A stretch of DNA of 64,000 nt, from the NCBI GenBank assembly GCA_004195045.1, contig SGBC01000004.1:154631-218630 (forward strand), written 5' to 3'. Under the pieces are notes generated by a model that saw only the letters and a program-made list of their open reading frames with translations, searched no databases and had not been told where the DNA came from. Positions within the stretch are counted from its first letter, which is position 1. The number at the start of each line of letters is the position of its first letter. Positions 2,691 through 9,955 of the stretch are shown here, piece by piece. This stretch comes from Candidatus Acididesulfobacter guangdongensis (GTDB taxonomy: Bacteria > SZUA-79 > Acidulodesulfobacterales > Acidulodesulfobacteraceae). The position numbers and the translations under genes were made by a program.

Positions 2691-3010
2691 TTTTGACTGT
2701 CGTTATTTGACTATATTATATTATAAATTATTAAAAATCAATTTTTAATTGAAATTTTTAGTATGATATATAAATGAAATATTTCGATTCAGAATTTATT
2801 TATTTTAATTTTTAATATTGTTTTTTTAAAGAAATAATGTTAACATATAGAAAAATGTATTATTTGTGACCATTACATCTGTTATTATTGGTTATTATGC
2901 TATTTGGTTAATGTTGTATGATATGATATGAGATAACATCGTATGATATATGTTATGGTTTTAAAATTAAAACAGTTAAATATAGTTTAAAATATTAATA
3001 AGGAGACAAA
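2691..3010. other. intergenic with short GTATGATAT repeats
   Basis: Divergent spacer of 320 bases between the secreted-protein gene and the disulfide oxidoreductase gene. GTATGATAT-like words recur around 2919-2955. No gene is visible. Confidence 0.45.
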
Positions 3011-3661
3011 ATGGCTCTTTTATCTAAAGAAGATGCTGCGTATCTTAAAAAAGATTTTTCTGAAAAATTAAAAGAAAACATTAAAATAATTTTTTTTAAA
3101 TCTGAAGATGCCTGCTTGTATTGCAACGAAACAAGGGAGATACTTACTGAATTGTCGTCGCTCAGCGATAAAATTTCTCTCATCGAATATGATTTTGACA
3201 AAGATAAAGATGCAGTTAAGACATATGCGGTTAAAAGAACTCCTGCTATTATTATTGCAGGAGACGATAAAGATTACGGCATAAGATTTTACGGAATGCC
3301 GGCAGGTCATGAGTTTACGACCATAATAACGGCTATAAAAAACGTATCAAATAAAACTGCCAATCTGAGTGAAAATACTTTGACTAAGCTCAAGGAAATA
3401 ATAAAGCCGTTTAACATACAAGTTTTTATAACACCTACCTGACCTCATTGTCCGCCGGCGGCGGTTCTCGCATACGCATTTGCAATGGTAAACGATTATA
3501 TTACCGCAGAAGTAATAGAGGTTCAGGAGTTTGTTAATTTAGCAGACAAATATGAGGTCAGCAGCGTACCTAAGACGGTTATGAATGATAACGGAGAGGT
3601 TTTAGGGGCTGTTCCTGAAAGTATTTTTTTGAGTAAAGCTATGGAATCATATAACTCATAA
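3011..3661 (+). CDS. protein disulfide oxidoreductase (two thioredoxin-fold domains), probable selenoprotein read through UGA at 3440-3442
   Basis: The first frame ends after 143 codons at TGA (3440-3442), but the same frame continues 73 codons to TAA at 3659-3661 and the join is seamless. Residues 140-149 read FITPT-U-PHCP, where PDO/glutaredoxin-like proteins have TPTCPYCPP. The N-terminal domain has CLYC (Cys35, Cys38) and a cis-Pro in RTPAI (78); the C-terminal domain has U144-P-H-C147 and a cis-Pro in SSVPKT (187). The total of 216 residues matches archaeal-type PDOs of about 225. These proteins catalyse dithiol-disulfide exchange, with the C-terminal motif as main active site. Start chosen at 3011 behind AAGGAGAC. 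A TGT/TGC to TGA mutation in a dying gene is the alternative, but the downstream half shows no other damage. Confidence 0.8.
3440..3487 (+). promoter_or_regulatory. candidate bacterial SECIS hairpin
   Basis: Directly after the UGA, CCGCC (3452-3456) pairs with GGCGG (3460-3464) around a GGC loop. CATTG (3446-3450) can also pair with CAATG (3483-3487) as an outer stem. A short GC stem with a G at the start of the loop, 10-15 nt after UGA, is the type of element SelB recognises. It is an island of GC in an A/T-rich gene, though it also encodes the conserved PPAA. Confidence 0.5.
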
Positions 3662-3733
3662 TGCAATATAATACAACGAAATATAAAATTAAATATAATA
3701 TGTGCGGCAGGTCTGTGTTTGCTGCGTCTTATA

Positions 3734-3935
3734 CCTTAATCCTGCAATAGAAAATATTTATGCATTTCTTTGCTCGGTTAAGCAAAATATAACTTTCTAT
3801 TGCAGAAATATAAGGAAAAGGTGTCAGATTTTATTTTTTTGCATATGGAATAGTTCAATTAACAAAGAAAATATTTGCAAAAAAATTAATCTGACACCTT
3901 TTCCGAGCAGATAACTTTCTATTGCAGGATTAAGG
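3734..3935. mobile_element. miniature inverted-repeat element B, copy 1, interrupted
   Basis: Begins CCTTAATCCTGCAATAGAAA and ends with its inverse. The intact relative at 9876-9955 is 80 bp, whereas this copy is 202 bp because another element sits inside it. It encodes nothing and resembles a MITE or REP-like unit. Confidence 0.75.
3806..3910. mobile_element. nested 105-bp insertion inside element B
   Basis: Contains a perfect 17-bp inverted repeat, GGAAAAGGTGTCAGATT (3814-3830) and its complement (3888-3904). The segment is flanked by the identical 17-mer ATAACTTTCTATTGCAG at 3789-3805 and 3911-3927, which occurs once in the intact copy, as a target duplication would. The AAGGTGTCAGATT end is reminiscent of REP/RAYT-type units. 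Confidence 0.65.
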
Positions 3936-3969
3936 TTATAGTGCCGTGCAGATTATATTTAATTTAATG

Positions 3970-3988: not shown

Positions 3989-4675
3989 ATGCAGCCAAAA
4001 TTACACAGTTATTGTATTGATAAGACTATAAGCGTTTTATATAATGACTCGAAGTTTGATGTTATCAATAAACTATTCGATTGCAAGATATCTCCGCTGG
4101 GTTTTGACGAGCGTATCCTGCTAATGCAGAGGGGTTCTTATATAATTGACAGGCTTGCGATTAAAAAGTTCAGGGTTCACTGGTTTGGAGGACATTATCT
4201 TTATCCTCACTCTCATGCAGGCTATGTCAGGGGATTCTCAGACGCGGGGACAAAATGCGCGCAGCTTTTTAATATTGCCGTTTCTTCGTGGAAAAAAGGA
4301 AATATTAAAAGTTCATTTATTGCATTGGGCGGCGCTACTCATCTAGTGCAGGATTTGTGCATTCCGTTTCATACTACAAATCTCGCATTGAAAAAACATA
4401 TTCATTTCGAAAGATGGATGTCGGCAAATTATCTTGATTTATCTATCGGGCTTGAGAACGGTACGTATAAATTTGAATCTTTAAAAGGACATTATAATGA
4501 CCAGTCGGCTTTCGGATGGGTTGACTACAATGCTCATAATTCTTCAAAATATTTGCCAGAGCTGCTTTATGCATCAAAGTCGGCCGACTATTTTAAATCT
4601 TTAAATATAATTTTACCTCAGGCAATCAAAACATCTGCCGGTTTTCTTAAATTATTTGCCAAAAAAGTTTCGTGA
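3989..4675 (+). CDS. zinc-dependent phospholipase C-like protein
   Basis: Resembles the phospholipase C / P1-nuclease fold, in which a tri-zinc site is built from His and Asp residues. The visible core is GGATHLVQDLCIPFHTTN (about 111-128), matching the family pattern H-x3-D-x4-P-x-H; further candidate zinc histidines lie in WFGGHY, YPHSHAG and HIHFERWM. No signal peptide is seen, unlike secreted bacterial toxins of the family, and 228 residues is near the length of the catalytic domain alone. Substrate unknown. It has its own promoter and is flanked by two different repeat elements. Confidence 0.65.
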   Translation: MQPKLHSYCIDKTISVLYNDSKFDVINKLFDCKISPLGFDERILLMQRGSYIIDRLAIKKFRVHWFGGHYLYPHSHAGYVRGFSDAGTKCAQLFNIAVSSWKKGNIKSSFIALGGATHLVQDLCIPFHTTNLALKKHIHFERWMSANYLDLSIGLENGTYKFESLKGHYNDQSAFGWVDYNAHNSSKYLPELLYASKSADYFKSLNIILPQAIKTSAGFLKLFAKKVS

Positions 4676-9875: not shown

Positions 9876-9955
9876 CCTTAATCCTGCAATAGAAAATATT
9901 TATGCATTTCTTTGTTCGGTTAAGCAAAAGATAACTTTCTATTGCAGGATTAAAG
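9876..9955. mobile_element. miniature inverted-repeat element B, intact copy
   Basis: 80 bp bounded by CCTTAATCCTGCAATAGAAA and the inverse TTTCTATTGCAGGATTAAAG (19 of 20 positions match). It can fold into one long hairpin, sits just after the EncFtn gene, and could end transcription there. Same family as 3734-3935. Confidence 0.75.

Follow-up and report, generated by a model that had tools for sequence, protein, structure and literature searches.

A predicted selenocysteine-containing protein disulfide oxidoreductase and its candidate recoding element in Candidatus Acidulodesulfobacteriota

Protein disulfide oxidoreductases with cysteine and with selenocysteine

Protein disulfide oxidoreductases (PDOs) have been described as a hallmark of thermophiles, and a review regards them as exclusive to such organisms (PMC7465337). 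The cysteine-type PDOs of thermophiles, for instance those of Pyrococcus (1A8L), Aquifex (2AYT and 2YWM) and Sulfolobus (SsPDO), are built of tandem thioredoxin folds with a redox motif each, as is the protein described here, and they carry Cys-Pro-x-Cys where our protein has Sec-Pro-His-Cys. In these enzymes the C-terminal site is dominant, as we propose for the selenocysteine (Sec, U) form. In S. solfataricus this site is essential for thiol transfer, and the PDO there relays electrons, which come from NADPH through thioredoxin reductase, to peroxiredoxins (PMC7465337, PMC7278568). Sec-containing proteins of the NCBIfam family TIGR02187, with a UxxC motif, have been listed in PMC1794560 (2006), PMC9312934 (2022) and PMC13188914 (2026), and additional Sec cases come from Asgard archaea (PMC11227280).

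The PDO gene described here belongs to an Acididesulfobacter-like bacterium of the acid-mine-drainage lineage Candidatus Acidulodesulfobacteriota, whose order has been described (PMC6776010). The host genome comprises 2.2 Mb in five contigs and is 99% complete; its close relatives are MAGs from acid-mine and similar sites, including Candidatus Acididesulfobacter diazotrophicus (84% identity) and SZUA-79. A preliminary description of the 64-kb stretch of DNA analysed here (the window) had placed at 3011-3661 a PDO with two thioredoxin folds and a Sec in its main active site, and had hinted that Sec was not clearly known in this two-domain type. Its coordinates and its account of the gene (216 residues, one TGA, TPT-U-PHC) are correct and its reading of the product as a Sec-containing PDO is borne out below, but the implied novelty is not, the three lists just cited having already included Sec-containing TIGR02187 proteins.

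The PDO gene and its conservation beyond the UGA codon

The features of the locus are as follows.
3000..3005, + strand: Shine-Dalgarno-like AAGGAG, a ribosome site upstream of the ATG (from the sequence).
3011..3661, + strand: Sec-containing PDO gene, whole frame of 216 aa plus TAA (from translation, TIGR02187 match and fold match).
3113..3124, + strand: redox motif of the N-terminal domain, C35-L-Y-C38, both Cys (from translation; C35 and C38 invariant among 23 orthologues).
3440..3442, + strand: UGA codon 144, predicted Sec, first residue of the C-terminal U-P-H-C active site (TGA in 23/23).
3449..3464, + strand: candidate SECIS (16 nt identical in 23/23 orthologues).
3566..3574, + strand: V186-P187-K188 in SSVPKT, the conserved loop that carries the cis-proline in the second thioredoxin fold (cis by analogy with thioredoxin folds in general).

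The frame at 3011-3661 holds a single in-frame TGA, at codon 144 within TPT-U-PHC when the UGA is translated as a residue, and continues through PPAAVLA and SSVPKT to the terminator TAA at 3659-3661. Standard annotation, which does not allow for recoding, ends it at the TGA after 143 aa, and the gene represents a strong case of one cut off by standard pipelines. The read-through protein matches TIGR02187, a model that bears the name PDO_seleno_TRX, at 259.3 bits (cut-off 185, E=1.9e-77) over residues 6-212 of the protein and 2-208 of the 209 model positions, hence at full length, and thioredoxin-family Pfam matches are present in each half. By sequence its best structural matches are PDOs (1a8l of Pyrococcus at 3.8e-58, and those of Aquifex as well). 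A structure predicted with an alignment of all 23 family members as input (mean pLDDT 85.9, pTM 0.86) matched the Aquifex PDO 2ayt with a TM of 0.92 and both 2ywm and 1a8l with 0.90, the matches to 2ayt and 1a8l spanning the entire chain; the N-terminal domains of AhpF (1zyn, 5h29) rank after the PDOs. Confidence in the model is low around residues 180-200, a region that includes the second cis-Pro loop. Each thioredoxin fold contributes one redox motif, C35-x-x-C38 and U144-x-x-C147. The product of 3011-3661 is a PDO of two thioredoxin folds and a full-length member of TIGR02187, as the preliminary description had assigned it.

Codon 144 is TGA, and the only stop within the frame, in each of the 23 full-length orthologues (the window copy plus those of 22 relatives with 64-94% identity), an agreement that goes well past what chance would give. 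A further genome (G008) contributes only a contig-end fragment covering the first domain, and six genomes of the family have no PDO match, among them G028; since the latter is 100% complete and has selA and tRNA-Sec, the gene can be absent while the Sec trait persists. Widening the search from the family to the phylum added nothing to these 30 genomes, to which depth within the phylum is thus limited. Mean pN/pS across the 23 orthologues is 0.196 upstream of the UGA and 0.208 downstream, values that a dead tail would not give, and a decaying tail is therefore ruled out.

These data bear directly on the possibility that the TGA is an accident, by nonsense mutation or sequencing error, with the downstream half in decay. 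The 143-aa ORF of standard annotation is what such an accident would yield, but all 23 independent assemblies keep the TGA, even where identity is as low as 64%, the orthologues contain neither another stop nor a frameshift, and selection past the TGA equals that before it. We reject an accidental TGA, to which we give next to no chance, on the conservation of both the TGA and the downstream frame, and the orthologue decay that the preliminary description had named as evidence against Sec was not found. In addition, the in-frame UGA aligns with the Cys of homologues and is followed by a conserved frame, the pattern by which selenoproteins are recognized. Taken with the Sec machinery and the invariant downstream stretch described below, codon 144 is almost certainly read through, and its reading as selenocysteine is strongly supported.

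Candidate SECIS, selenocysteine machinery and neighbourhood

The longest run of invariant nucleotides in the PDO gene across the 23 orthologues is the 16-nt TGTCCGCCGGCGGCGG at 3449-3464. Codons 141-155 show a synonymous divergence of just 0.22-0.23, as compared to approximately 0.5-1.0 elsewhere in the gene, and among the 37 invariant amino-acid columns with at least fourfold degeneracy the only codon-invariant ones are the four directly after UPHC, where Pro-Pro-Ala-Ala is encoded by CCG CCG GCG GCG in 23/23, against a window background of 31% GC in which GCG makes up 17% of Ala codons. Frozen synonymous sites of this kind are expected of a SECIS stem-loop, and the 16-nt run resembles a SECIS under selection, for which we infer a stem of 5 bp pairing 3452-3456 (CCGCC) with 3460-3464 (GGCGG) around the loop 3457-3459 (GGC); the invariant run and this predicted stem terminate at the same position. 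The folding energy of the stem-loop does not stand out from that of dinucleotide shuffles (z 0.4-0.5), and an element invariant in 23/23 offers no covariation, so the argument for a SECIS comes from synonymous-site conservation and from nothing else. The lineage supplies 23 natural sequences for this candidate UGA-recoding element with its frozen synonymous positions.

The preliminary description had proposed a search of the same genome for selA, selB, selD and tRNA-Sec, and all four are present: the tRNA-Sec exceeds the Rfam cut-off and is confirmed by ARAGORN (anticodon TCA), and the matches to selA, selB and selD score 575, 312 and 347 bits. The selD gene (L019:1483-2559; contig G000:C4, match 92943-93875) itself contains an in-frame UGA, within HG-U-GCKLGPEDL, and by the same reading of UGA the host SelD is itself a predicted selenoprotein. 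Sec-containing SelD is a known form of this enzyme, and selenide water dikinase appears in the TGA list of PMC1914089. Among the 30 family genomes selA is above cut-off in 28 and tRNA-Sec in 25. Three (G009, G011 and G021) combine the UGA-containing PDO and selA with no tRNA-Sec over the Rfam cut-off, probably owing to draft gaps, despite a stated completeness of 100% for G011.

Alternatively, UGA might specify an ordinary amino acid, Trp or Gly by reassignment of the code or Cys by a tRNA variant. Cys at codon 144 would likewise restore the active site; however, TGA is the stop of 7 of the 33 long ORFs in the window, on which basis code reassignment is rejected, the genome carries the Sec machinery just described, and the frozen downstream stem points to local, SelB-dependent recoding. 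We regard an ordinary amino acid at this position as very improbable.

A third scenario is compatible with Sec insertion and does not exclude it: the single-domain 143-aa protein with the N-terminal CxxC might also be made in functional amounts by termination at the UGA, as a programmed second product when selenium is short. UGA recoding is generally accompanied by some termination at the Sec codon, and the first domain forms a complete fold in the predicted model, but the sequence bears no sign of selection for a separate short product, with pN/pS even over both halves, and we consider such a dual output unlikely.

The PDO gene is flanked by def, by a gene for a protein without a Pfam match and by a gene with weak likeness to Zn-dependent phospholipase C, flanks that are conserved across the lineage with rearrangement; the phospholipase-like gene and the one without a Pfam match lie at 3989-4675 and 2100-2690. 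No redox operon partner was found among these flanking genes, the gene adjoins neither sel genes nor trxB in the host genome, and a simple motif scan of the 64-kb window gave no second convincing Sec-like in-frame TGA. Directly downstream of the PDO gene, at 3733-3936, lies a palindromic repeat (ACCTTAATCCTGCAATAGAAA...TTTCTATTGCAGGATTAAGGT), which recurs at 9878-9953; the copy next to the PDO gene seems interrupted by another palindrome (AAAAGGTGTCAGATT..., 3814-3904), and the intergenic gap after the PDO gene is approximately 200 nt longer than in a 94%-identical relative (L077). These palindromes look like nested MITE/REP-like insertions.

Proposed mechanism, origin and comparison with known selenoproteins

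We propose that the gene very probably encodes a cytosolic PDO with a Sec-Pro-His-Cys site, in which the UGA at 3440-3442 would be decoded by SelB and Sec-tRNA-Sec under the direction of a small GC-rich stem-loop that begins 10 nt past the UGA. The C-terminal Sec-Pro-His-Cys would be the catalytically dominant motif: by homology with the C-terminal site of the Sulfolobus PDO, the selenolate of Sec144 would attack a substrate disulfide (in proteins or peroxiredoxins) and Cys147 would resolve the mixed selenide-sulfide. The Se-S bond would then be reduced by thioredoxin reductase and NADPH, possibly through the N-terminal CxxC pair; the direction of the reaction, the electron donor and the substrates are all presumed here. 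Expression of peroxiredoxin and thioredoxin reductase has been reported in the order of the host (PMC6776010). The host genome encodes a thioredoxin reductase (G000:C2:27463-28356) and a conventional thioredoxin, so the PDO is not the sole such carrier. That Sec would make it a much faster catalyst is plausible.

Among 80 related loci, which span many phyla, the site is Cys in 59 and predicted Sec in 21. The homologues the preliminary description had suggested comparing have TGA in all 23 full-length cases of the lineage and Cys in most cases outside it. The 21 comprise 19 loci of the Acidulodesulfobacteriota clade, one of a Zixibacteria MAG (L112, TPTUPYC) and one of a Nitrospirota MAG (L116, TPTUPHC), the last two having in common a GC-rich CCGGCCGCGG shortly after the UGA; the contig scan for relatives looked for a motif in which the Sec position is encoded as Cys, which leaves Sec forms elsewhere undersampled in these counts. 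In a quick tree of the loci the Sec label requires three changes, of which strongly supported branches force only one, and separate Cys-to-Sec changes in L112, L116 and the Acidulodesulfobacteriota are on this account likely but not proven. We tentatively speculate, well aware that it may not hold, that a candidate phylum of mesophilic or moderate acidophiles fixed a Sec PDO as a main cytosolic thiol-disulfide catalyst, along with a rigid recoding element, and that Sec arose from Cys separately in the Nitrospirota and Zixibacteria relatives. TIGR02187 PDOs, thermophile-specific according to PMC7465337, are found in acid-mine bacteria, although the growth temperature of the host is not established.

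The PDO described here is a new and very well supported member of an already catalogued family and not a new class of selenoprotein; what is new lies in the detail, namely a predicted Sec form fixed in a lineage, its occurrence outside the known thermophiles and a rigid candidate recoding element, and a little-studied selenoprotein family is thereby extended to a whole acidophilic candidate phylum. The N-terminal domain of AhpF likewise has tandem thioredoxin-like folds (1zyn, 5h29), but it is joined to a flavin reductase, unlike the PDO, and the AhpF model TIGR03140 is a far weaker match (86.6 bits, cut-off 502.9). The Asgard (Borrarchaeales) Sec-containing AhpF-N homologues, regarded as recent derivatives of Cys forms (PMC11227280), belong to the same selenoprotein family by name, and are likened to our protein by name only; they are archaeal, and so are their Sec machinery and SECIS. 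Closest are the Sec TIGR02187 proteins of Carboxydothermus hydrogenoformans and Symbiobacterium, predicted with high confidence in the lists cited at the outset, which share the NCBIfam family and the UxxC motif (for ABB15282.1 the likeness is one of family and motif listing); the PDO described here differs from those listed in its lineage, in its UPHC motif, in being fixed in an acidophilic candidate phylum and in its invariant RNA element.
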